Shown one piece after another: positions 18,005 to 37,522 of a DNA stretch of 64,000 nt (position 1 is the stretch's first letter; each line of letters opens with the position of its first letter). The DNA comes from a bacterium endosymbiont of Escarpia laminata (GTDB lineage Bacteria; Pseudomonadota; Gammaproteobacteria; Chromatiales; Chromatiaceae): contig QGON01000065.1 in NCBI GenBank assembly GCA_003660235.1, forward strand, positions 1-64,000. The letters run 5' to 3'. The notes beneath the pieces were generated by a model. It did not search any database, had not been told where the DNA came from, and saw nothing but the letters and a program-made list of their open reading frames with translations. Both the position numbers and the translations under genes were made by a program.

Positions 18005-20273
18005 CGACAGTCACGGACCTGGTGGTCTCGATGGTTTGTGTTCCGTCGTAGGTGATCCGCAGGAGCACGTCATAGTTCCCGGCATTCGCATAGACGTGAG
18101 CTGCCGTAGCATCGTCCGTGGCTTCTGGCGGGCTGCCATCTCCGAAATCCCAGAGGTAGCCGATGACGGTTGCATCGCGGAGCTCACCTGCTTCGAAGAT
18201 CACTTCCTGGCCGGCCTGTGGTGATGCAGGATCGAAAGTGAAACTCGCTACCGGCCGGTAGTCAGCGAAGCAATTCTTGCTCTCGTTCATGATGAGCTGA
18301 ATGGCTTCAGCCTCTCCCGCACAATCGCCCCGCCATCCGGCGAACTCAAATCCCTCGACCGCTGAGGCGGTGAGGCTCACTGCAGCGTCGACTTCGAACC
18401 CGGCGGCGCACAGGCCCTCGCAGCCTGGGGGCTCAAAGCCCGATGGCGCCGACATGACCAGTCCGCCAGTGGTCTGATATACCCGCAGCACGACCTCGCA
18501 ACCGGCGCCGATGCCCGCCTCGCCAAGGCCGTAGACCTGCAGCGGCGTCTCCTGATTTTGGAACGCCGCCATGCCATGACCGAGTTGTCCGAAGGAGTTC
18601 TGTCCCCATGACCAGACGTTGCCGCAGACGTTGTGGCTTGCCAGTGAGTGCCGTTGACCGGCCGCGACACTGCTCACTGAGTCCAGGGCAGGCACGTGGA
18701 CGGGGTAGCTTTGCGGGAACTGGAGCGCCGCCCCCGCCATCTGCCCGAAGGTATTGTCACCCCAGGTCCAGAGTTGGCCGTCGACCAGGGCCGCCAGGGT
18801 GTGTCCGTCGCCGGCGGCGAGCCCGGCGATGCTCAGATGGGCGGCGGTCTGCACCGGCTGGTATCTTGTGTCGGTGGTCCCGTCGCCGAGCTGGCCAAAG
18901 CTGTTGGCGCCCCAGCCGCGGAACCCCGGCTCGCCGCTGACAAGCGCAACCGTGTAGTCATCGCCCGACCGGATCTGCTGCACGCCGCTGATGAATGGAA
19001 TGTCGACGGGAATCAAGTGGTCGACCGGCGTGTTGGCGCCCAACTGTCTGACGTCGTTTCGCCCCCAGCCCCACACGGTCCCATCGTTCAGCAGGGCCAG
19101 AGAGAACCCCGTGCCGGCGCTCACGGCGATCGGTGTGTCCGGCAGTTTCTCAACCGGTTTGGCAAACCGACTCACGGCATGTAACCTATCGAGTTCATCC
19201 GCTGTATCGCGCCCTAGCTGTCCGTGGGCGTTGGTGTTGGTGCCCCAGGAGGTGACCGGGCCGCCCACCTGCAGAGCTAGGGAATGGGCATCGCCGGCAG
19301 CGATCGCGACCACGTTCTCGAGCGGGTAGGGTATATTGCCGTCGCAATCTTTACTCTTCGTGAAGCCTGCCAATACTGGCCGCCCAATCGAGAAGTTGAG
19401 TTCGCGTTCGTTGAGATCGAATCTCCCCTCGGGACAGCCCTGTGTCGTGATGAAGTCCCAGGACGCGCCCAGCTGGCGCCGGTCGTTGGCCCCCCAGGTA
19501 TAGACTCGGCCGTCCTCGCCGAGCGCCAGGGAGTAGTTGTCGCCCGCAACGATGTTGCGCACCGGACCCTCGAGCCCCTGCACTGGAACGGGCGCGTTGC
19601 GGTCGATGCGGGTGCCGTCGCCGTGCTGGTTGTCGCCCCAGGCCCAGACGGCGCCGTCCTCCAGCAGTGCGAGCGAATGTCCGAACCCGGCGGCGACCCG
19701 GGCGACCTTCGAGGTCTTGACGGCGCCGCCGGTGGGCACCACCACAAGGCCGAGACGCGCCGCCGTGTTCACCTTAAAGCTGGCATCATCGGGCTCCCGC
19801 ATACTCCAGATTTTGATCTGGTGCGGGTAGATTCCCGGCCGCGTCGTGGCCTGCGTCTCGATGGTCAGCAGGGCCGCGCGCGGGGAGTCCGGTGTCCGGA
19901 TGCTGTAGTCGAAGCTGTAGCTGGCGTTCAGATTCTGAACCGTCTTGCGGATCGGATAGACGACGTACTTGATGTCCGTTGGCAGGGTAAGGCCGTGGGT
20001 ATTGTTCGTCGTCGTGTCAACTCTGACGGACACAGAGTCGCCTTCCGTGAGGAAGACCCAGTCTTCGTCGACAACGATATTCAGGTATACCGTCGGCCCG
20101 CTGCTGGAAGCCAGGATTGTCAGTACGCCAAACGTGACGACGGTTAAGGCAGCGAGGAATCGCGCGAGGGATAGGAATTTGCTTTTCGCGGATGCAGCGC
20201 CTTGCGCCATCAACCCGCCCAAAAGTCCGGCAAACACTTGTTGGACATAAGCCCGATTATCCGTGTTGGCCAT
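17853..20273 (-). CDS. RCC1-repeat, PKD-domain surface or secreted protein (frameshifted at 3' end)
   Basis: A large protein with an N-terminal hydrophobic anchor (FLAALTVVTFGVLTILASS) and then a beta-rich domain. At least seven RCC1-type repeats follow (GHSLALLEDGAVWAWGDN, YSLALGEDGRVYTWGAND and similar), predicting a beta-propeller. A glycine/cysteine segment with FEFAGWRGDCAGEAE and a PKD domain (YLWDFGDGSPP) come next. After VTVAA the frame turns to Arg-rich nonsense (from ~18005 down to the stop), while the adjacent frame continues as an FN3 domain, so the true protein is about 930 residues. A good site (GGGGGGTGAG) precedes the ATG. Function is unknown; RCC1-like propellers mediate protein binding. 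Confidence 0.85.
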   Translation of the reverse strand: MANTDNRAYVQQVFAGLLGGLMAQGAASAKSKFLSLARFLAALTVVTFGVLTILASSSGPTVYLNIVVDEDWVFLTEGDSVSVRVDTTTNNTHGLTLPTDIKYVVYPIRKTVQNLNASYSFDYSIRTPDSPRAALLTIETQATTRPGIYPHQIKIWSMREPDDASFKVNTAARLGLVVVPTGGAVKTSKVARVAAGFGHSLALLEDGAVWAWGDNQHGDGTRIDRNAPVPVQGLEGPVRNIVAGDNYSLALGEDGRVYTWGANDRRQLGASWDFITTQGCPEGRFDLNERELNFSIGRPVLAGFTKSKDCDGNIPYPLENVVAIAAGDAHSLALQVGGPVTSWGTNTNAHGQLGRDTADELDRLHAVSRFAKPVEKLPDTPIAVSAGTGFSLALLNDGTVWGWGRNDVRQLGANTPVDHLIPVDIPFISGVQQIRSGDDYTVALVSGEPGFRGWGANSFGQLGDGTTDTRYQPVQTAAHLSIAGLAAGDGHTLAALVDGQLWTWGDNTFGQMAGAALQFPQSYPVHVPALDSVSSVAAGQRHSLASHNVCGNVWSWGQNSFGQLGHGMAAFQNQETPLQVYGLGEAGIGAGCEVVLRVYQTTGGLVMSAPSGFEPPGCEGLCAAGFEVDAAVSLTASAVEGFEFAGWRGDCAGEAEAIQLIMNESKNCFADYRPVASFTFDPASPQAGQEVIFEAGELRDATVIGYLWDFGDGSPPEATDDATAAHVYANAGNYDVLLRITYDGTQTIETTRSVTVAAECSGQRRRRAGHRELGLCQRRDLVQSLLEHDRQREHCGQSDRRRQLVL

Positions 20274-26486: not shown

Positions 26487-27026
26487 TTAAAGTAGTGAAT
26501 CAGTAGAATTCACTTGAGTCTTAGGTATATTCGCTTTTGCATCATAAATAAACAAAGCACGCAACTTCTCCCAAAATTCTCCTCCCAGCACAAACAATGT
26601 AACAATAAATAGAAAATCCGCGATTATGTTCATGGTTATCCGGTTCTCTGCATACCACATGATTAGGTCAGGAGCATAGAAGGTTAAATAGGCGTATATG
26701 ATATGAAGCAGTAGTAACATCAGTCCGAACCTGTAACGTGTGCGACTGACTTCACCTCGTGGTACAGCACGCTTCAGGAGTGAGAATGCTTTATTCTTTA
26801 TATAAACATATCCAGGCTTGCCAAGTAGAATGATAGAAAGAACACTAAATATTTCAGGTGCCCCAATTAACAAAAAACCTGAAAGAAAAGCCTTTGTAGC
26901 AGTTTCTAAGTTTAAGTTAGTAACAAGAGGTATGAATAAAGGGCATACCCAACCAAATATGAATAAAAAGAGGCCTAAACAAAACCGCCAACTTTTAGGG
27001 TTAAACTGTTCTTTGTCTTCATCCAT
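26487..27026 (-). CDS. Transporter-suffix-domain membrane protein
   Basis: A 179-residue integral membrane protein with four to five helices. The opening WRFCLGLFLFIFGWVCPLFIPLV, then GFLLIGAPEIFSVLSIILLGKPGYVYIKNKAF and RYRFGLMLLLLHIIYAYLTFYAPDL match small proteins annotated as transporter suffix domain. In other genomes this module is found alone or fused after a transporter. Its role is unknown. The gene is AT-rich compared with its neighbours, suggesting recent acquisition. AGGT precedes the ATG. Confidence 0.65.
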   Translation of the reverse strand: MDEDKEQFNPKSWRFCLGLFLFIFGWVCPLFIPLVTNLNLETATKAFLSGFLLIGAPEIFSVLSIILLGKPGYVYIKNKAFSLLKRAVPRGEVSRTRYRFGLMLLLLHIIYAYLTFYAPDLIMWYAENRITMNIIADFLFIVTLFVLGGEFWEKLRALFIYDAKANIPKTQVNSTDSLL

Positions 27027-27758: not shown

Positions 27759-28751
27759 ATGAAGCGACTCATATTCTGCCTCTTATCATTGATCAGCTTG
27801 GCCAGCCCGGCGACTGAACCCAGCGAGGTACTCATTGGCCTGAAGATCGATCAGATCACCGGTATCAATCAAAAGGCGGAGAACTTCAGCGTTGTCGGTA
27901 GTCTTCGTATCGATTGGCATCAGCCGCTGCTCGCGTTTGAACCCGTCCCAGGTGAAGCAGGATATCGCACCTATACCCTTGCCACCTTTCTCAAACTGCT
28001 GGAACAGAAACAGATCCGCTGGCCAGTCATCACCTACCATAACCAGCAAGGACGAACAGACTTCCAAAATCGTCTTATCTCCCTCGCGGAGGATGGCACG
28101 GTGATGTATCTCGAACGTTTCACCGCGACCTTTCAGGCACCCGCCTTCGACTTCCGGCTGTTTCCATTCGACAACCAGCTCTTTTTTATCTATGTGGATT
28201 CAATCTTCCCGCAGAGTCTGTTCCGATTCAAAGAGATGCCGGGGTTCAGTGGATTGGGGCAGCAATTGGGCGAAGAGGAGGGGATCGTTACCGATGTGCA
28301 TACCCGCTTGGCGACCCACAACGAATTCACCAAGGGGGAAGCCTCCCGCTTCGTGCTGGAGTTCCACGCCAAACGTCATCTCAACTACTATCTGATACGG
28401 ATCTTGATCCCGGCCCTGCTGATCATCACCGTTGCCTGGTTTACCTTCTTTCTGCAGGACTACACCAAACGCATCGATCTGGCTGGTGGTAACCTGCTGC
28501 TCTTCATCGCCTTCAACTTCACCATCTCCAGTGATCTACCCCGGCTCGGCTATATCACCCTGATGGATGCGTTTCTGGTCGGCACATTCTTCATCACCGC
28601 CCTGGTGGTTTTGGGTAATGTCTGGCTGCGGCGGCTGGAAAATCATGGCAGAAAAGCACTCGCGAAAAGACTCGATATCTACGCTATTACCAGCTATCCA
28701 TTGGCCTACCTGCTTGGTGCCCTTACTCTCTGGCTGCTCTTTTTCTGGTAA
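27759..28751 (+). CDS. Prokaryotic pentameric ligand-gated ion channel (GLIC/ELIC-like)
   Basis: A 330-residue homologue of the Cys-loop receptor superfamily. A signal peptide (MKRLIFCLLSLISLASPA) leads an extracellular beta-sandwich (~20-208). In it lies the conserved Pro-loop APAFDFRLFPFDNQ (128-140), without the two cysteines of animal receptors, as is usual in bacteria. Four helices follow: M1 (~210-232, YYLIRILIPALLIITVAWFTFFL), M2 lining the pore (~240-258), M3 (~265-290) and M4 (~310-330). The intracellular M3-M4 link is very short. Ligand and ion selectivity cannot be read from sequence; the M2 residues lack a GLIC-like EXSXA pattern that I can align securely. Confidence 0.88.
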   Translation: MKRLIFCLLSLISLASPATEPSEVLIGLKIDQITGINQKAENFSVVGSLRIDWHQPLLAFEPVPGEAGYRTYTLATFLKLLEQKQIRWPVITYHNQQGRTDFQNRLISLAEDGTVMYLERFTATFQAPAFDFRLFPFDNQLFFIYVDSIFPQSLFRFKEMPGFSGLGQQLGEEEGIVTDVHTRLATHNEFTKGEASRFVLEFHAKRHLNYYLIRILIPALLIITVAWFTFFLQDYTKRIDLAGGNLLLFIAFNFTISSDLPRLGYITLMDAFLVGTFFITALVVLGNVWLRRLENHGRKALAKRLDIYAITSYPLAYLLGALTLWLLFFW

Positions 28752-28861: not shown

Positions 28862-30055
28862 TCATTGGTTGGGAAATATCGCACCTGACCAACTTTTGTT
28901 GAAACTAAAAGATGCACGCAACCCAACGACAGTCTCTAACCTATCATCACGGTTACGTAAAAACTGAACTGAGGGTGTAATATGAAACCAGCTCTCGGGT
29001 TGGAACTTCCAGTACAGCTCTGCCCCGTACTGGTTATTGAACCCCTGCATTTTTTTGAAACTGCTGGCCTGACCATAGAGTGCTGCGGCCGCGAGCTGCT
29101 GGTTCGCTCTGCCGAAAGGCCGGTTCCAGGCAGCCCCGATGAAACCGCCGTCTTTTACCGATAGCGAGGAGCTCTGGGCCGCAGCCGTCTTGCCCGTGCC
29201 GCCGTTTTTGACAGTATAACGCCCAAAAGTCGCGTACTCTGCCTGCTCCCCGAACTCATGCGTGAATTGCCCCACCAGCCCGCGCTCAGTCGTGAGATCG
29301 TCATGCTCATCCACAAGGTAGCCGAGCGCCGACAGTGACGTCGTACCGTTCGGGTTACCGGGTTCATAAGCCAATTCCAGCATATAGGCATATTTCCCCT
29401 TGCTGAAACTGGAGAAATCCAGGCCGTCGGCCGTGGCCTGAGCATCGACCACGCCTGCCTGAACTGTCCACTGATCACCGTGCCAGGCGCCGGCAACCCC
29501 CAGGCCGATCGACTCCCAGAAGGACGCCACCGGATTCCCGGAGATCATCTTGTTGGTGAAGGTGTTCGAGTTGTCCGCCGTATAATCGCTTAGCAGAAAG
29601 AACTGGCCTGGGAAATATTTACCCAGGCCAACCGATAAACGATGGTCAAAAAACCACTGATCAACAGCCAAAACCAGCAAAGAGGTACTCGCGCTGTCAG
29701 ACCCGTTATCCGTGGTATCCCACAGGAGGCCGGCCTGGCCGGCGAGTTCCGGTGCTGAATGTAAGTCGCCGATCTTGTCGGCTGAATTCATCCAGATAAC
29801 CAGATTGGTGCTACCGAAGGTACCTGAATCCCGCCGGAAGAGATTGATATTGGCAATCGCGTCCAGCGTGTAATTGCCGGTGTCCCCTTCCTCACGCAGG
29901 GCATACTGGTATGCCGGCACGGCCGACAGGTCGAGATATTGCTGTGACTGTGCGGACGCTTCCAGCGCATCATTAAGGCGGCTGGCCTCGACCGTCTGAG
30001 TCATCACCGCAATCGTGGCGATGACCCGGATAGCTTGAGCCAGAGAAGTTCTCAT
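28862..30055 (-). CDS. OprB-type carbohydrate porin (outer-membrane beta-barrel)
   Basis: A 397-residue predicted outer-membrane barrel with a signal sequence (SLAQAIRVIATIAVMTQTVEA). It has repeating amphipathic strands with aromatic girdles, DTGNYTLDAIANINLF, SVGLGKYFPGQFFLLSDYTADNSNTF (an OprB-like segment) and a strand-like end. The family passes sugars and other small solutes. It is the last gene of the amide-hydrolase cluster and overlaps or abuts the dimethylformamidase-like gene: the ATG at 30067 overlaps its stop, while the one at 30055 follows GAGGTG and was preferred. The solute is probably the substrate or product of that cluster. Confidence 0.82.
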   Translation of the reverse strand: MRTSLAQAIRVIATIAVMTQTVEASRLNDALEASAQSQQYLDLSAVPAYQYALREEGDTGNYTLDAIANINLFRRDSGTFGSTNLVIWMNSADKIGDLHSAPELAGQAGLLWDTTDNGSDSASTSLLVLAVDQWFFDHRLSVGLGKYFPGQFFLLSDYTADNSNTFTNKMISGNPVASFWESIGLGVAGAWHGDQWTVQAGVVDAQATADGLDFSSFSKGKYAYMLELAYEPGNPNGTTSLSALGYLVDEHDDLTTERGLVGQFTHEFGEQAEYATFGRYTVKNGGTGKTAAAQSSSLSVKDGGFIGAAWNRPFGRANQQLAAAALYGQASSFKKMQGFNNQYGAELYWKFQPESWFHITPSVQFLRNRDDRLETVVGLRASFSFNKSWSGAIFPNQ

Positions 30056-30063
30056 GGCGCACC

Positions 30064-32589
30064 TCATTTCTTCGTGGTATCAATCGCTCTGTCATATTCC
30101 GGTTCAGGCGCTGCCCGGTCTACATCATCGATATCAGCTTTCGGAATGGCTGGAAACGGTTTGGCATCGAGGAAGCGCTGAATTACATTGCCAGTGATCC
30201 TCGCGACATCATTGTCAAAGTTGTTTTCCAGCAACGAGCCAAGCCAGGTAATTGACCCGGTTGAAAACATGGCGCCGCCATTTGCTGTTTCAAAGAACAC
30301 AAGATCAGCCTGAGCCGTGATTTCACCCTTACTCGGTGTGTATTTTACTGAGACCGGGAGGATACCAAGGGTAGTATTTGAAATGGTTGGCCTAAGTGGT
30401 TCAGAGGTTGCCAGCTGCAGTGCATGGCGCGGCACACCATTATCGGGGTTGTAGCGATCAATCTCATATCCAGCGGCTCCGCCATGCACTTTATCAATGC
30501 CGTAATCCCCAAACACGTCACCTTCTTTGGTACCAGAAAAGATCCAGGTCGCACGCGGGTTCCCTGCATCTTCCCCTTTTCGATAGGCACTGGAACCGTG
30601 AAAGTTCTCCCCCGACATTTCAACACCAAATACCGGACCTGAAGGTCGTCCAGTTTCAATCATCAGGCCGCCACGCAGGCCACTGGTCAGGTAACGATCA
30701 GCGATACCGTGAAAATTACGGGATTCCATAACACCTGGTAGAGTTGGATGACCGTCGGCACTCCAGAACCAGCCATTAGCCCCCATGTACATAAAGCGCC
30801 CGCCCTGTTCGGTGTAGTCAGCAACATTATCAAACATAACAGGTGTCACATACTCGGGATGGCTTGAGCTCACGATCACCTGATATTGCTTTAGCAGTTC
30901 CAGGCCTTCGGCATCGACCAGCTCGTCGGTAATAATGTCATAGTCAATTCCCTTATGCTCAAGAAAACTGGTGAGGTGCGTATCTAAAGGGAAGTTATAC
31001 AGCAAGCCCCCCGGTTTCATATGAATATCAGGACGCAGCCGGGTGCCATAGTCGAAGAAGGTTCCATCAAGATGGAGGGAGTAGACACCCGTGGTGGCGT
31101 ACTCCAGGTGAGTCTTCAGGAACCTGGTGTCGGCTTCATTAATGTTCATGCCTGAGTAGTTTTGCGGTACGGTCGCAATATAGCTGATATTGGAGTAGGC
31201 AAGATAATTGTAGTCAGACAACCAGACGGCAAGTTTTGCCTGTGGTTTCCCTGTAGGAGCAGCCACAAAGAAGGGGATGTACTCCACAAAATCGCCCTGT
31301 TTCAGCCGCGCCGCATAAATGCCGCTGTCAAGATCCATTGGCACGGTGTAACTGAAATTAACCTGCCACTCGGCATTGTAGATATCATCGGCGTGAAAGG
31401 CGATGGCATCATACTGATTTGGATCATCGGTCCACTTGATGGTGTCGCCGTTCCAGAATACCCCGCGTAATGCCCGCTCTGGCAGGTTAATGACGCTGCC
31501 ATTGTGTTCTTTGCCGGAGATATCATGGATTATTGTGCTGCCGATGCCCTGAGCAAAATCCCAATCGCCCACCAGACTAGGTTGCAACTTTTTCGGTGTT
31601 TCTTCAACAGAGAGCTGATTGATTTCGGATTCTGATAGTACCCGGTTGGCAAGCCGTACATCCTGGATGCGACCATTGAACACGTCTACCGGTTTTTCCT
31701 GTTTGGCATTGGCAGCACCCGGGCCACCTCGCACTGCAGCAATACGCAATGGTCCTGCCTGAACTATAGGCTTGCTGAGAGTGCCGGTTACGTGCAGGTT
31801 GCGAGCAGTGAACTTATCACCTGGTGATGAGGGTTTTTCCATCAAATATACCGTGATCTTCCGGCCATCAGCGTCATAGCTGACGGCGACATAGGTCCAG
31901 TCCCAGTCACGGGCGGCCTCGGTAAGCTTGACCGTATCCAGTTTGCCGTCACCGGAGCCAGTAACAAATTGCAGACGTGCTTGCTCGTCAAGCTGTAATG
32001 CCCATCCCGTTCCTGTGACCTTGTCGAATCGGGACACAATGGTTTGATCCACAATCGATGCGGCGATAGTGAGCGTTGGCGGGTGAAACGGATCGGGATT
32101 CTCCAGGTCAGGCGCCACATACTCGGATGGTGTAAAGGTCGGAAACACCCAGGCCGAAATGGTGAAGCTCTTAAGTTCGTCGAGTGTCTTGCCGGCTTCG
32201 ACCTGAACATAGGAACCCAGGTTTAGGGGCTGCTCCTTACCCTCGTAGCTGCCTGCAAACGGTGCATCAACCGGGTCTACTCTGAAGTGCTCTTTGTAAC
32301 GGCTCAGCGAGTCGCCGTTAACGACTCTCACCAGATCCGCTTTATAAGTGCCTCCGCCGATGACATTCGCCATAAAATCGACCTTGTCACCCGGACGCAC
32401 AGACAGTGGTGCCGCATAGCCGATTATGGAGCGGACTGGCGTCTTTTCCGCGGCGTGCAGCGGCATTATCTGGGCAAATGTAAGCAGCAATATAGTGATG
32501 AGCCCACTGAGGGATAGCGGCCACGCCCCAGTTAGCCTCAAAAAACCCGGCAGTGGATTTGTGACACGCTCTTCCATACTCATATTCAT
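30064..32589 (-). CDS. Secreted N,N-dimethylformamidase beta-subunit-like protein with LamG domain
   Basis: An 841-residue exported protein (signal LSGLITILLLTFAQIMPLHA). An N-terminal domain is followed by a LamG/concanavalin-like jelly roll (~115-300, FTISAWVFPTF, NGRIQDVRLANRVLSESEI). The C-terminal half is shared with the large subunit of N,N-dimethylformamidase: AVWLSDYNYLAYSN, VIVSSSHPEYVTP and GGRFMYMGANGWFW. The HPE at residues 577-579 matches the His-x-Glu of the mononuclear iron site in that enzyme. A separate small alpha subunit is not present. Iron-dependent amide hydrolysis is inferred; substrate unknown. The start used is the ATG at 32589 preceded by AGGAG. Confidence 0.8.
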   Translation of the reverse strand: MNMSMEERVTNPLPGFLRLTGAWPLSLSGLITILLLTFAQIMPLHAAEKTPVRSIIGYAAPLSVRPGDKVDFMANVIGGGTYKADLVRVVNGDSLSRYKEHFRVDPVDAPFAGSYEGKEQPLNLGSYVQVEAGKTLDELKSFTISAWVFPTFTPSEYVAPDLENPDPFHPPTLTIAASIVDQTIVSRFDKVTGTGWALQLDEQARLQFVTGSGDGKLDTVKLTEAARDWDWTYVAVSYDADGRKITVYLMEKPSSPGDKFTARNLHVTGTLSKPIVQAGPLRIAAVRGGPGAANAKQEKPVDVFNGRIQDVRLANRVLSESEINQLSVEETPKKLQPSLVGDWDFAQGIGSTIIHDISGKEHNGSVINLPERALRGVFWNGDTIKWTDDPNQYDAIAFHADDIYNAEWQVNFSYTVPMDLDSGIYAARLKQGDFVEYIPFFVAAPTGKPQAKLAVWLSDYNYLAYSNISYIATVPQNYSGMNINEADTRFLKTHLEYATTGVYSLHLDGTFFDYGTRLRPDIHMKPGGLLYNFPLDTHLTSFLEHKGIDYDIITDELVDAEGLELLKQYQVIVSSSHPEYVTPVMFDNVADYTEQGGRFMYMGANGWFWSADGHPTLPGVMESRNFHGIADRYLTSGLRGGLMIETGRPSGPVFGVEMSGENFHGSSAYRKGEDAGNPRATWIFSGTKEGDVFGDYGIDKVHGGAAGYEIDRYNPDNGVPRHALQLATSEPLRPTISNTTLGILPVSVKYTPSKGEITAQADLVFFETANGGAMFSTGSITWLGSLLENNFDNDVARITGNVIQRFLDAKPFPAIPKADIDDVDRAAPEPEYDRAIDTTKK

Positions 32590-32654
32590 TCTAGTTCTCC
32601 TGGATGACTTGGCCGTAGAGTTCTCAGTCCAAGGCACTCTTTCGGATTTACAAT

Positions 32655-33233
32655 CTATGATCGCTCTAGTAATTCTTTTGTTCCTAACCCCCAGTAACGC
32701 TGACAGTCAAGAATATCAACCCTGGATGCATTGAGTTTTCTGACACGCTCAGGACCGACACACTGAACAGCTCCTGAAACGCTCATGGGTGCATGGGGGA
32801 TAAATACGGTCAAGCGTTTATTAATATGTTCTTCAATGATAAAAACAAGCATCTGTGTATCACCATCTGTTAGTACCGCAGGAAGATAACCCTCCACATC
32901 ATTGTTATTATTAAACTGCTGAGTAAAATGCTTTAACATCGAGTAGATGCCTAACTTCTCAAGGATTGCTTTTTCCAACCAGCGACCAATATATTTTCCA
33001 GTTCTGCATCTTGCAGTAAAACCAACAAAGAAAAACAGTAAAAACAGCAAAACAACAGCGATGGCAGTGCCGCTAAGAAAATTATTTCCTGAAAAGTATG
33101 AAGCAATAGGCTGAGTAATTAAGATAACAACATCAAACAACTCTTCTATTGCGACTATTGCTAGTCCAACCGGGAGCAATATAAGAAAACCTTTCACAGA
33201 CGTTGTTTTTAAAAATTCAAATACAGGTTTCAT
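32655..33233 (-). CDS. DUF502 membrane protein
   Basis: A 192-residue protein with two N-terminal membrane helices (VKGFLILLPVGLAIVAIEELF and FLSGTAIAVVLLFLLFFFVGFTA) and a soluble domain. The order matches DUF502: KGFLILLP opening, GRWLEKAILEKLGIYSMLKHFTQQF, then the MLVFIIEEHINKRLTVFIPHAPMSVSGAVQCV stretch. No function is known for the family. It sits between the two amide-hydrolase genes on the same strand, with ~45-65 bp gaps. It may help assemble or export their products; this is a guess from position. Confidence 0.85.
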   Translation of the reverse strand: MKPVFEFLKTTSVKGFLILLPVGLAIVAIEELFDVVILITQPIASYFSGNNFLSGTAIAVVLLFLLFFFVGFTARCRTGKYIGRWLEKAILEKLGIYSMLKHFTQQFNNNNDVEGYLPAVLTDGDTQMLVFIIEEHINKRLTVFIPHAPMSVSGAVQCVGPERVRKLNASRVDILDCQRYWGLGTKELLERS

Positions 33234-33277
33234 GTTTAGTCACTTCCAATAGTGAACGCAGCTTATTTATAAGCCTA

Positions 33278-34393
33278 TTACTTCCTGAATGATATCTCTT
33301 TTATATCTTGTTCTTTCTTATCATCCAGAGGAATGTGGACTATCTCATGAGCTTGCTTTGAAAAATCTATTTTCTTTAAATCTAATTTCCGTATTCTTCT
33401 ATTATGTTGGGTATGATAATAAAGAACTCGTTCAGTAAGATCCCAGGCTGTTGTCCAAATGGTTGAACTGCGCATACCTTCTAAATTAGCGGCATTATTC
33501 GATCCTTCAGCACTGCCTAATGGTAAATTAAAGTTATCAAGAATTCTAAATAGTTCATAAATAGTTTCCTCTGATTTCGCTGTTGGACGTGCGGTCTGAG
33601 TCCATGCTACAGCACGGACAAAACGTGATGGCGGTGTAAAGTCGCCAGGCAAACCAATCATACCGCTACCACCGCCTATTGGGGTAAAGTCAAGCTCTTC
33701 AATCTTTTTATCTGGTATAGCTACAGCAGAAAGATTTACATAATTGCGTAGATTAGTCATATGCCAATCATAGTTAGGGGCGTTTGTTATAACTCCCAAT
33801 GGGTTTTCATGAATCTTGAGCTGACCATCAGTAAACTCAATGACAATTGATATTCCTGTGGCATCAGTCACTATCCAATGGGCATTAACAGGAATACCCA
33901 ATGCTTTCTCAATAACGGGAACCACCTGAACGGTTTTCATTCCAGCTCTGACTTCTTCAACGCTGGCAAACTGGCTTAAAATAAAGTTAACAATATTAAC
34001 CGCAGTAATAGTTTCCTCAGCCATAGAAGGCTTGTATTCCATGTAACTCGCGAAACCCGGATGATAAAAAAGCCCTACAGCAAGTCCTTTTTCGTTCATT
34101 CCATCAGCGAGATAGTCTTTGTGCAACATATCAAGACCAACAACGGCATATTTTCCTTTCCACTTTTTGCCATTATTGCCATCAGGTGTGAGACCTGTAA
34201 AAGAATGACCACGAGGAATGGTGGCAACTCTGGAATTGAGATCAAAAGTCCCCCACTCCATCGAACGCCCGTAAACTACCGATCCATCTCCAGCAGTTAA
34301 TCTGATACCCGTACATGCATTCGATTGATTGATATTGAAGCCAAATACTAATAGAGCTAATAAGTTCAGTGCGACTAATTTTACTGTTTTCAT
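33278..34393 (-). CDS. Exported linear amide C-N hydrolase (choloylglycine hydrolase family)
   Basis: A 371-residue Ntn-type hydrolase. The signal peptide ends at SNA, so processing exposes Cys27 (NACTGIRL), the N-terminal nucleophile. Other expected active-site elements are RSMEWGTFD, the TNAPNYDWHMTNLRNY segment with its Asn, and PPSRFVRAV with the conserved Arg. Relatives cleave penicillin V, conjugated bile acids or N-acyl homoserine lactones. The protein is periplasmic or secreted by inference. It is 40 bp downstream of the beta-barrel gene and part of an operon with it. AT-rich relative to the housekeeping genes nearby. Confidence 0.9.
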   Translation of the reverse strand: MKTVKLVALNLLALLVFGFNINQSNACTGIRLTAGDGSVVYGRSMEWGTFDLNSRVATIPRGHSFTGLTPDGNNGKKWKGKYAVVGLDMLHKDYLADGMNEKGLAVGLFYHPGFASYMEYKPSMAEETITAVNIVNFILSQFASVEEVRAGMKTVQVVPVIEKALGIPVNAHWIVTDATGISIVIEFTDGQLKIHENPLGVITNAPNYDWHMTNLRNYVNLSAVAIPDKKIEELDFTPIGGGSGMIGLPGDFTPPSRFVRAVAWTQTARPTAKSEETIYELFRILDNFNLPLGSAEGSNNAANLEGMRSSTIWTTAWDLTERVLYYHTQHNRRIRKLDLKKIDFSKQAHEIVHIPLDDKKEQDIKEISFRK

Positions 34394-34433
34394 ATTGTTT
34401 CCTTTTTCAATTTGCCACTAAAATTAGGTGATA

Positions 34434-35288
34434 TTAAAAATAGGTAGTAAAATTTAGAAACGCGTTATAGTCATTTTTCAACCCTGAATTCTCATCACGA
34501 CGATAGGTTCTAAGATCCTTGTCATAGTTTTTTTGTACTAATACAGACCAGGTTACTGTCGGTGTGACCTTACCCATAACAGTGATATCCATATTACCGG
34601 AACCCTCCCCTGAAAGATCGCCTGAGAAGAAACGTGTATAACCAGGCCAGAATTGAACACTGGCACCATCCCACCAGTTGCCCGGCACATAAACCAACAA
34701 TGGTGATACATTTATGCCCGCACCATTGTGTTTTTCAAACTTTTTGTCCCATGTATTCACCAGATTTATCGGTAAAAATAAACTCCACCTTTTGTTAATG
34801 CCGAATGCAGGAAGCCCTCCGATCGACAGCACATTTTGTCCATCCGTACCTTTCAGTGCGCCCGCTATCTGCAGGTCGATCTGGGTTGCCCAGCCTCGGT
34901 ATCCTGATGTCACTGTGTAGTCCATATCGAAAAGGTGAAACCATCTTGCGCGGGGACCGGTAAGCCCTGAATTGCTGCCTGAAACCTTGTCACCAGAGTG
35001 TTTGCCGTAGCCAAGATTAAAAAATACCATGTCGCTTTTCGATAACCCAATATTGCCTGCTACCCGCAACTCCAACATACTTTCACCGTTGGTGTAGTCG
35101 ACATACTTCGGGCCTACTCCGATATAGGTATAAATTTTCGTGGGATCCGACGCATCGATTTTTTCACTCTGTGCATAGGCACTATCAAGCATTACTGCAA
35201 AGAAGAGCAGAATAAACAACGTGGAGAGCATTGCTTTCGTTAAAATACCTTTGCTTCTGAATAATGGATTGAACGTATAAAATTTCAT
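34434..35288 (-). CDS. Outer-membrane beta-barrel protein, first gene of the amide-hydrolase operon
   Basis: A 284-residue exported protein (signal LSTLFILLFFAVMLDSAYA, cleavage before QSEKID). The mature sequence shows alternating aromatic beta-strands (MVFFNLGYGKHSGD, YRGWATQIDLQIAGAL, WWDGASVQFWPGYTRF) and ends FLNFTTYF, a terminal phenylalanine as recognised by the BAM machinery. It resembles transporter-type or phenol-MetA-like barrels, but I cannot assign a named family. It is the promoter-proximal gene of the cluster, facing the divergent AraC gene, so it is likely the uptake pore for the inducing compound. Confidence 0.75.
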   Translation of the reverse strand: MKFYTFNPLFRSKGILTKAMLSTLFILLFFAVMLDSAYAQSEKIDASDPTKIYTYIGVGPKYVDYTNGESMLELRVAGNIGLSKSDMVFFNLGYGKHSGDKVSGSNSGLTGPRARWFHLFDMDYTVTSGYRGWATQIDLQIAGALKGTDGQNVLSIGGLPAFGINKRWSLFLPINLVNTWDKKFEKHNGAGINVSPLLVYVPGNWWDGASVQFWPGYTRFFSGDLSGEGSGNMDITVMGKVTPTVTWSVLVQKNYDKDLRTYRRDENSGLKNDYNAFLNFTTYF

Positions 35289-35350
35289 AATTTATTTATT
35301 TCCATTTCAGAATAATTTCGTTAAACGATCAGAATGTCTCACCATCATCC

Positions 35351-35379
35351 ATTACTTATTACTTATTACTTATTTACTT
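35351..35379. repeat. Heptanucleotide tandem repeat (ATTACTT)
   Basis: Three perfect ATTACTT units (35351-35371) followed by ATTTACTT, ~60 bp upstream of the beta-barrel start and within the divergent promoter region. Changes in copy number would shift promoter spacing by seven bases. Confidence 0.8.
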
Positions 35380-35426
35380 ATCTAAATTAAGGCATTGCAG
35401 TTAAGTTCGGAAATGAATTTCAGATA

Positions 35427-35460
35427 GAAAATAATTTTCGTCTATGTGAAAATAATTTTC
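35427..35460. promoter_or_regulatory. Twin 13-bp palindromic operators in divergent promoter region
   Basis: GAAAATAATTTTC occurs at 35427-35439 and again at 35448-35460, exactly 21 bp apart, i.e. two helical turns. Each copy is palindromic around one central base. The pair also sits in an outer inverted repeat, GATA-/-TATC. A related GAAATGAATTTC lies at 35410-35421. The region divides the operon at 35288 and the AraC-type gene. These are probable regulator binding sites; the regulator identity is inferred from position. Confidence 0.6.
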
Positions 35461-35672
35461 TATCCAAATTGCGCACACTTTGCAAAAATAACCACTTCAG
35501 CGATATCTGGAGATCACCGCAACCACGCACAAAGTAGCTTATAACCTATTGATATTAGGTTTATTTCCTACCCTTATCCTAATTCGGACAGGGGGGCGTG
35601 ATCGCTGCCCCTCGGCGAAGGTGGGGTAAGCCCCCTATTGCACTCACAGATATCACTGAAAAACCCAAAAAC

Positions 35673-36683
35673 ATGAATTTCACTCAAGATAAAGACAAAA
35701 ATAGAAACCTGTTTCTATCATCTCAGTTTCATGACGTAGATCAGTATCTTGAACACATTGCGCTTATGCCTCAGATGGATTCGGATATGATTCAGCTGGA
35801 TAAGGGACCCTTTCATCTTTTTGAACAGGTATTTATGTTCGGGGATGTAGGCATAGTTCATCTCGGTAGTAATAAGGCCGTATTTGAACGCTACTCTCTG
35901 TCAGCCGACCACACACTTTTTGGATTTACACCACCGCAAGGGAACGTGCAATCTCGCTGGTGTGGGATGGTGGCTCCCCCTGACTGTGTTGGTATTGTCC
36001 ATTCTAATCGAGAATATTCTGGTTACGCCCCTTCGGGTCATAATGTATTGGACTTGATAATTCCACAAACCTGGCTACTGGAACAGGGTGTTGTTGATGA
36101 GAGGTTATGGAGAAACTCTTTGATACCAGAAAAAGCAATTTTTCCTCTACCGTACCAGCAAGCTTTTCGCTTCCGCGACATACTTTACAATCTGGTAAAT
36201 AATAAGAGTATGCAAGAATTACTAAAACAAGATCAAGAAATGGCAAGTCTGTTTCGCGAATGGGTTCTGGATGAATTCCTATTATTAATAACAGCCTGCT
36301 TCAAGGTGACGAATAAAAAAATGAGGATCGCCAGTCAGTCTCGTTTTGAGATTTTTCAGACCGCCATCAATATGATTGATAATCAAATTATGAATCCACT
36401 ATCCACCAGCAACCTGGCGTTACAGATAGGGACCTCACCAAGAAGTTTGCAATACGCCTTTCAGGAAAATATTGGGGTAACGCCCCTACAGTATATTCTT
36501 CACCGGAAACTCCATGCTGCTCGAACCCAATTGCAACAGAAATTTTCTGATACACACGCTAACGTAGCAAGCATTGCTATGCTCTATAGCATGACACATC
36601 TTGGTAGATTTAGCTTGAATTACAAAAGCCTGTTTGGTGAGCTACCCTCTGCAACACTGAAGCAGATAAATGCAAAAAATTGA
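35673..36683 (+). CDS. AraC-family transcriptional regulator
   Basis: A 336-residue regulator. An N-terminal sensing domain of ~230 residues precedes a C-terminal double helix-turn-helix: LSTSNLALQIGTSPRSLQYAFQENIGVTPLQYILHRKL and VASIAMLYSMTHLGRFSLNYKSLFGELPS. The overall layout resembles the EutR/ethanolamine-type subgroup. It is divergent from the amide-hydrolase operon and 140-210 bp from repeated palindromes, so it likely controls that operon and itself. No ribosome site precedes this ATG; a GTG at 35598 (after AGGGGGG) would add 25 Arg/Pro-rich residues and cannot be excluded. Confidence 0.85.
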   Translation: MNFTQDKDKNRNLFLSSQFHDVDQYLEHIALMPQMDSDMIQLDKGPFHLFEQVFMFGDVGIVHLGSNKAVFERYSLSADHTLFGFTPPQGNVQSRWCGMVAPPDCVGIVHSNREYSGYAPSGHNVLDLIIPQTWLLEQGVVDERLWRNSLIPEKAIFPLPYQQAFRFRDILYNLVNNKSMQELLKQDQEMASLFREWVLDEFLLLITACFKVTNKKMRIASQSRFEIFQTAINMIDNQIMNPLSTSNLALQIGTSPRSLQYAFQENIGVTPLQYILHRKLHAARTQLQQKFSDTHANVASIAMLYSMTHLGRFSLNYKSLFGELPSATLKQINAKN

Positions 36684-36748: not shown

Positions 36749-37033
36749 ATGGTTGACCTAGTTGGTTATACTGCTGGTTTTTTTCTAATGTGGAGTTTTC
36801 TCCCGCAGATCATTAAAACAGCAAAAACTCATAAAACAGATGGCTTATCAGTTGGCATGTTGATAATTTCACTAATTTCTGCGGCACTATCTGAACTCTA
36901 TGCCTTTATGCTGGGACTGACCCCAATGCTTATCATGAATGGCATATTTCTACTGTTATTATTGATACAGTTGGTGATGACTCTATTGATTGACAGGTCA
37001 TCTGCGAATATTGAAATCGCAGTTGAATCGTAG
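36749..37033 (+). CDS. SemiSWEET sugar transporter
   Basis: A 94-residue protein with three predicted helices and the PQ motif in FLMWSFLPQIIKTAKTHKT (P19-Q20), followed by DGLSVGMLIIS, the SemiSWEET hallmark. Homologues dimerise and allow sugar diffusion across the inner membrane. AAAGGATCATT precedes the ATG. It lies 65 bp downstream of the AraC gene on the same strand; whether it serves the amide cluster is unknown. Confidence 0.85.
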   Translation: MVDLVGYTAGFFLMWSFLPQIIKTAKTHKTDGLSVGMLIISLISAALSELYAFMLGLTPMLIMNGIFLLLLLIQLVMTLLIDRSSANIEIAVES

Positions 37034-37261: not shown

Positions 37262-37522
37262 TCATACGACGGTAAAGTCATCATCCGGCTCCGGTGGCTT
37301 CTGATTCTTGATGTATTCCTTCCATACCTCATCAGTCACATTTCCGCTTGATGCCACCCAATATCCTCTGGACCATAGATGCTGGCCCCAATATCTCTTT
37401 CTCAGGGCCTTATACTCCGATAACAGCCTGTGAGAGCTCTTCCCCTTCAGATACTGCACTGCCCGTGACACCGATAGCTGAGGCGGAATACCAATCAACT
37501 CAGGAACCAGCCTTAATGCATC
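37262..37522 (-). pseudogene. IS200/IS605-family transposase TnpA, C-terminal fragment
   Basis: The frame encodes GIPPQLSVSRAVQYLKGKSSHRLL, KRYWGQHLWSRGYWVASSGNVTDEVWKEYIKNQ, the C-terminal half of the Y1 transposase, including the catalytic Tyr helix region. The N-terminal half with the HUH motif is absent: upstream residues (ALRLVPEL) are unrelated and stop at 37523. It is an inactive remnant, cut at the junction with the IS4 fragment. Confidence 0.8.

Follow-up and report, generated by a model that had tools for sequence, protein, structure and literature searches.

A rare, apparently exported and apparently single-subunit branch of dimethylformamidase-like proteins, often paired with an OprB-like porin, in an endosymbiont of Escarpia laminata

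The fmd system of Methylophilus methylotrophus combines a formamidase with FmdC, a porin for short-chain amides. Our literature search on formamidase and amide porins found no source for this system, and the name fmdC is applied in PMC4807772 to a formylmethanofuran dehydrogenase gene. In the N,N-dimethylformamidase (DMFase) of Paracoccus, Y399, Y440 and E521 are the iron ligands and H519 is an essential histidine; the 2-Tyr-1-Glu iron site is described as unique, and domain II of the large subunit has a pentraxin fold (PMC7686228). For choloylglycine hydrolases, six catalytic positions are given: Cys2, Arg18, Asp21, Asn81 (aromatic in penicillin V acylases, PVAs), Asn175, and Arg228 (PMC8066178). 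Here, we analyze 64,000 nucleotides (the window) from a bacterial endosymbiont of Escarpia laminata (assembly GCA_003660235.1, contig QGON01000065.1, positions 1 to 64,000), whose genome comprises 4.25 Mb in 71 contigs. A cluster at 28862–36683 encodes a DMFase-like protein and an OprB-like porin in overlapping genes. On balance, we favor the reading that the core of this cluster is an exported single-subunit iron amidase in the periplasm, fed by the porin. What is new appears to be this branch of iron amidohydrolases, apparently exported, apparently single-subunit and with its own porin, rather than the five-gene set in which it lies.

The features that carry this reading are:
28862–30067, minus strand: OprB-like porin of a rare subfamily (Pfam OprB), with a 4-bp overlap with the DMFase-like gene
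30064–32637, minus strand: DMFase-like predicted iron amidohydrolase with an export-type N-terminus (Pfam DMFA2_C and Laminin_G_3)
32047–32121, minus strand: branch-specific 25-residue insert, residues 173–197, in the LamG/pentraxin domain (alignment columns; translation check)

The DMFase-like protein belongs to the DMFase large-subunit family PF20254 by its match to Pfam DMFA2_C (208.2 bits; cut-off 27), and the Ig-like, pentraxin, and alpha/beta/alpha domains of that family are all found in it. The first-pass annotation had listed a LamG domain in this protein. The match itself holds (Laminin_G_3, 47.8 bits; cut-off 27.6), but the domain is no addition: it corresponds to domain II, of pentraxin fold, in the large subunit of DMFase, and a sugar-binding add-on is ruled out on the same ground (PMC7686228). 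The protein has 857 residues from a GTG start and 841 from an ATG at 32589, the latter being the length of its database copy, P0001. The HPE motif reported at 577–579 is found there when counted from the ATG and corresponds to 593–595 from the GTG. In the longer numbering, Y481, Y519, E595, and H593 align with Y399, Y440, E521, and H519 of the Paracoccus enzyme, and would be their counterparts. The lack of the tyrosine ligand and iron site had been named as one observation that would undo the first-pass interpretation; checked by sequence, both tyrosines, the glutamate, and the histidine are present, and the interpretation is not refuted on this count.

This protein falls in a distinct branch, which we compared through nine related loci (L004–L012) and a set of 71 distant loci. 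On a tree of 107 rows, made by a quick method with 24 of 120 database proteins taken in and the pieces of a broken gene in L005 left out, the branch appears as one change with 100% support in the SH-like approximate likelihood ratio test (SH-aLRT), and its stem measures 1.06 changes per column; L013, which joins beside it, was flagged by the program as a long branch. Members of the branch are at least 46% identical to the window protein (41-row alignment), and the next loci outside it at most 37% (among the best 80 of 566). A genus mate, G002, carries an 85% identical match, the sole other one among 55 relatives including the source (whole protein, E 1e-10); because the match coordinates coincide, we infer that it is the same record as L004, a contig of the endosymbiont of Escarpia spicata. 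The branch is rare: a full-strength match occurs in one of 369 genomes of the class, beside eight weaker ones (332–497 vs. 1416 bits), and in two of 140 genomes of a family with known members, beside two weaker ones.

Branch members usually bear an export-type N-terminus, from which export is predicted. Among 118 branch rows (database proteins longer than 740 aa, the loci, and the window protein), the N-terminal extension has a median of 39 residues, and 88 rows pass a test that asks for an extension of at least 20 residues with a hydrophobic stretch. Outside the branch, one of 75 rows passes, and this one comes from the broken L005 gene, itself a branch member; with both L005 pieces set aside, the count is 0 of 73. 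By eye, the N-terminus of L012 is twin-arginine-like and those of L006 and L010 are lipoprotein-like.

The branch also differs from the two-subunit DMFase, which is defined by a co-encoded small alpha subunit; none was found here. Using the small subunit of plasmid pAMI2 (L114) as a seed, together with a profile from its relatives, we scored an alpha-like gene as adjacent when it lay on the same strand as the large subunit and its end fell no further than 200 bp into the large subunit or 300 bp ahead of that subunit's start. Such a gene stands at the large-subunit start in 43 of 71 distant loci, in none of the nine branch loci, and nowhere in the window. In ten branch genomes, the profile (eleven proteins) gave no match, with three of three controls positive, one of which had contributed a row to the profile; the single sequence gave none either, its controls being positive for pAMI2 and one genome and missed in another. 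In the source genome, the single sequence (E 0.1) and the profile (E 0.01) yielded no small subunit. It is likely, from these searches, that the DMFase-like protein works without the usual partner. The columns of insert 173–197 are filled in at least 80% of the 118 branch rows and in at most 20% of the 73 distant rows.

The second element of the core, the porin, exceeds the cut-off for Pfam OprB (PF04966; 43.1 bits vs. 22.9) in two stretches that form a partial profile match. The same porin lies near the DMFase-like gene in the window and in six of the nine branch loci (L004, L005, L007, L009, L010, and L011), and in none of the 71 distant loci at E 1e-3, some of which are short. In the window and five of the six porin loci the frames overlap by 1–8 bp; in L005, the porin precedes the enzyme gene. 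Searched at E 1e-10 with a profile of seven such porins, the window protein included, the class sample gave no match in its 368 other genomes. Related bacteria often keep the enzyme–porin pair without the other genes of the cluster. In L007 (4151–4450) and L009 (5212–6033), on opposite strands, the porin is followed by a further barrel-like protein whose sequence looks similar in the two when compared by eye.

In the mechanism that we propose, small amides would enter via the porin and bind at an Fe(III) held by Y481, Y519, and E595, and hydrolysis aided by H593 would then release a carboxylate and an amine in the periplasm. As a guess from the alignment, insert 173–197 may stand in for the absent small subunit. 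Several points weigh against this reading. The large subunit of the Paracoccus enzyme shows no activity on its own (PMC7686228), and activity of a single subunit would therefore have to be proved here. No alpha-like gene was found in 28 of the 71 distant loci either, so that its absence alone is no marker of the branch, and some of the ten branch genomes are draft assemblies. The export test failed in 30 of the 118 branch rows, through uncertain starts or the threshold. As for the porin, L008 and L012 have none within 10 kb on either side, and the sequence of L006 stops 447 bases past the enzyme gene. The porins were first spotted beside the enzyme, so the rate of six in nine is not unbiased; the porin profile matched the source genome, which had given it a row, and the class sample contains one branch member only. 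Moreover, an OprB match alone is no proof of amide passage. Finally, a deletion in the genus mate and the differing base composition of the genes, both described below, weaken the case for a function of the whole cluster.

A different substrate for the same protein is the alternative that survives best, and we regard it as possible though doubtful. The DMFase-like protein would then be an exported acylase of N-acyl amino acids or N-acetyl amines, with a porin that admits amino-acid-like solutes; its model is the N-acetyl-(R)-beta-phenylalanine acylase, which shares the mechanism and takes a substrate larger than formamides. However, DMFase scores slightly higher in both sequence and fold. Our literature search found no paper for this acylase (PDB 8huy). 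Formamide-like and N-acetyl-amine substrates are both possible for the exported amidase that we prefer, and the AHL (acyl-homoserine lactone) or formamide-type substrates suggested by the first-pass annotation are a guess.

The other features of the cluster and its edge are:
32655–33233, minus strand: DUF502-like membrane protein (Pfam DUF502 just under cut-off)
33278–34393, minus strand: choloylglycine-hydrolase-family N-terminal nucleophile (Ntn) acylase with an export-type N-terminus (CBAH; residue comparison)
34434–35288, minus strand: small predicted outer-membrane barrel, likely 12-stranded, without a Pfam family (predicted structure)
35427–35460, no strand: operator-like element with two GAAAATAATTTTC copies (repeat search)
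35598–36683, plus strand: divergent AraC-family regulator, with an alternative ATG at 35673 (HTH_18)
36749–37033, plus strand: SemiSWEET/PQ-loop transporter open reading frame (ORF) 3' of the regulator, of uncertain cluster membership (PQ-loop, MtN3_slv)
37265–37522, minus strand: remnant of an IS200-type transposase at the cluster edge (Y1_Tnp)

All six ORFs first described at 28862–36683 were found at their coordinates, and their family names hold. From 35288 toward 28862, the minus-strand genes are separated by 40, 44, and 17 bp and then overlap by 4 bp; the AraC gene is divergent from them across 309 bp. The first-pass picture is likewise supported in these respects: the two amide-hydrolase families are unrelated and both show export-type N-termini, there are two barrels, and an operator-like repeat accompanies the AraC gene. 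The regulator matches HTH_18 (57.2 bits; cut-off 33.6) and L004:521-1654 (786.9 bits). Two perfect GAAAATAATTTTC copies, 21 bp start to start, lie between the AraC and barrel genes within a 17-nt inverted repeat (35423–35464). This is the sole place in the window where the element occurs at up to three mismatches, with 0.00 expected from shuffles, and a near copy is readable in L004. Two helix turns between copies suit an AraC-type dimer. Control of the array by the AraC protein is likely on this evidence: by binding to the tandem 21-bp repeat, the protein would activate the array when an amide or a product is present.

The acylase has a CBAH domain (244.1 bits; cut-off 20.4) and an N-terminal cysteine, Cys27, that aligns with the nucleophile of choloylglycine hydrolases, which places it in PF02275. 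Its key residues are C27, R43, E46, W47, F109, N204, and R257; five of the six catalytic positions fit a PVA, and the Asp21 position holds Glu46. All 121 rows of the comparison have this glutamate (the window protein, its database copy, and the 119 best further hits out of 6737), which delineates a subgroup of choloylglycine hydrolases with Glu for the catalytic aspartate. Relatives of the acylase carry names from Desulfobacteraceae, Bacteroidales, Planctomycetaceae, and WOR-3. The protein does not qualify as a bile salt hydrolase (BSH), given 224.7 bits against a cut-off of 350 (NF038245) and Phe109 where Asn81 is expected; its PVA score is 218 against 600. Its likely substrates are N-acyl amides that are larger and hydrophobic, which would be taken up through the second barrel. 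This barrel, a 284-aa protein without a Pfam family, is modeled as a barrel of 12 long strands (pLDDT, the model's confidence score, 87.0), and its best structural matches are outer-membrane channels. It has 274 relatives in the protein database, and one lies in L005 (369 bits); among 369 genomes of the class (single sequence) and 398 of the phylum (profile), it was found only in the source. A sequence search of the PDB with either barrel gave best E-values of 0.52 and 0.12, to unrelated proteins. The DUF502 match is 23.1 bits against a cut-off of 23.8; the protein is also present in L004 (401.6 bits) and in none of L005–L012.

The five genes had been proposed to form one pathway, and this did not hold as a conserved unit. 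Of the five, the DMFase-like gene and the porin alone recur together across the nine related loci (six of nine). The DUF502 protein and the window-type AraC recur only in the genus mate, and the 284-aa barrel is whole in L005 and a stub in L004. A conserved five-gene pathway is therefore ruled out, the acylase being mostly absent and DUF502 and AraC confined to the genus mate. Aligned with the window, the DNA of L004 breaks off after 33271 and resumes matching at 35121, so that about 1.85 kb is gone; the gap removes the acylase and most of the barrel, leaving the barrel start as a stub. At this scar (L004:1655-2083), the DUF502, DMFase-like, and porin genes are kept. L005 (564–14239) has a larger array, with an AraC gene from a different subfamily lying upstream; it contains a TonB-type plug protein, a barrel of the same kind, three DMFase-family genes, the porin, and a sulfatase. 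The branch gene among them is broken into two frames, and the two further DMFase-family proteins also carry DMFA2_C.

Base composition suggests a composite origin. The guanine-plus-cytosine (GC) fraction is 0.39–0.40 for DUF502 and the acylase, 0.42–0.44 for AraC and the barrel, and 0.52–0.56 for the DMFase-like gene and the porin, against 0.60–0.63 in purM, purN, and DUF3108; genes on the other flank have 0.37, 0.53, and 0.56, and because they are mixed too, this is only a hint. These GC classes, the IS200 remnant at one edge (74.1 bits to Y1_Tnp, covering profile positions 56–121 of 121), and the deletion in L004 favor an accidental accumulation of acquired genes at a site prone to insertions, with a shared function in the enzyme–porin pair only, a reading that we rate as somewhat unlikely. 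Against it, the genes share a strand with gaps of at most 44 bp, the divergent regulator and its tandem operator-like repeat are kept in L004, and the barrel recurs in L005 beside DMFase-family genes and the same porin. An empty site was not readable in stretches of about 20 kb from the genus mates G001, G003, and G004 compared with window positions 20001–50000; in pieces of more than 100 bases, they share only a ligand-gated channel gene (79% DNA identity over 996 bases). The likely arrangement, in our view, is an enzyme–porin pair that sits here under AraC control with further acquired genes.

A single quorum-quenching or N-acyl-amide-degrading unit formed by the whole array, with the Ntn acylase and the DMFase-like enzyme acting in sequence, is improbable: tight same-strand spacing, a shared divergent regulator, the aromatic W47 and F109 as in PVAs, and the degradation of AHLs by two PVAs of Gram-negative bacteria (PMC8066178) speak for it, but the acylase is found in none of the five other genomes of the genus (E 1e-10), is absent in seven of the eight genomes to which L005–L012 belong (the eighth has a 28% identical match outside the locus), has a GC fraction of 0.40 against 0.52 for the DMFase-like gene, and was lost by deletion from the genus mate, which keeps the rest.

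Some neighboring features were also recorded. The SemiSWEET ORF (PQ-loop, 42.3 bits; MtN3_slv, 24.2 vs. a cut-off of 23.7) falls in a stretch 95.5% identical to L004. The channel gene that adjoins the cluster (27759–28751) encodes a homolog of pentameric ligand-gated ion channels (Neur_chan_LBD, 33.8 bits) and is present in five of six genomes of the genus, the source counted. A small stand-alone membrane protein at 26487–27026 reaches 49.9 bits against the NCBIfam transporter suffix domain, whose cut-off is 40. On pAMI2, a resistance gene predicted by rgi (L114:6096-6359) looks false because an annotated IS3 transposase gene encloses it entirely.

If the preferred reading of an exported, porin-fed amidase is correct, 2-Tyr-1-Glu chemistry would be placed in the periplasm beside a porin, which suggests natural amides, beyond industrial dimethylformamide, as substrates in the sea and in symbioses. 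A branch that keeps the iron site, seemingly without the small subunit, would also make the role of that subunit directly testable. More tentatively, and with somewhat less than even confidence, we hypothesize that the whole branch left the cytoplasm, built a replacement for the small subunit into its pentraxin domain, and gained a private porin, giving a two-gene system of periplasmic amide scavenging in marine and symbiotic bacteria. A literature search with DMFase, porin, and amide terms found no paper describing such an exported single-subunit branch with a porin.

Compared with known systems, the window protein is about 30% identical to the Paracoccus DMFase (DmfA1/DmfA2; PDB 6lvb; plasmid pAMI2), with a similar predicted fold, and differs from it in the export-type N-terminus, the 25-residue insert, the porin pairing, and a small-subunit gene found neither nearby nor in the genome. 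Another close system is the N-acetyl-(R)-beta-phenylalanine acylase (PDB 8huy, 8i59, and 8i5a), for which, unlike the window protein, we know of no porin pairing or export. The fmd system, likened here by description only, would work alike in grouping an amidase gene with a small-amide porin; its formamidase is cytoplasmic, of another family, and served by an ABC transporter, unlike the window enzyme. The window porin shares with the carbohydrate-selective OprB porins a Pfam match above cut-off, and differs from typical members in its partial match and in forming a rare subfamily near an exported DMFase-like branch. The acylase resembles PVAs and BSHs in the cysteine nucleophile and the equivalents of Arg18, Asn175, and Arg228, and PVAs in its aromatic Trp47 and Phe109, the latter at the Asn81 position (PMC8066178); it departs from both in Glu46 for Asp21 and in scoring under both NCBIfam cut-offs. 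Lastly, for the 284-aa barrel, without a sequence relative in the PDB, the 12-stranded FapF and COG4313-type channels are candidate relatives.
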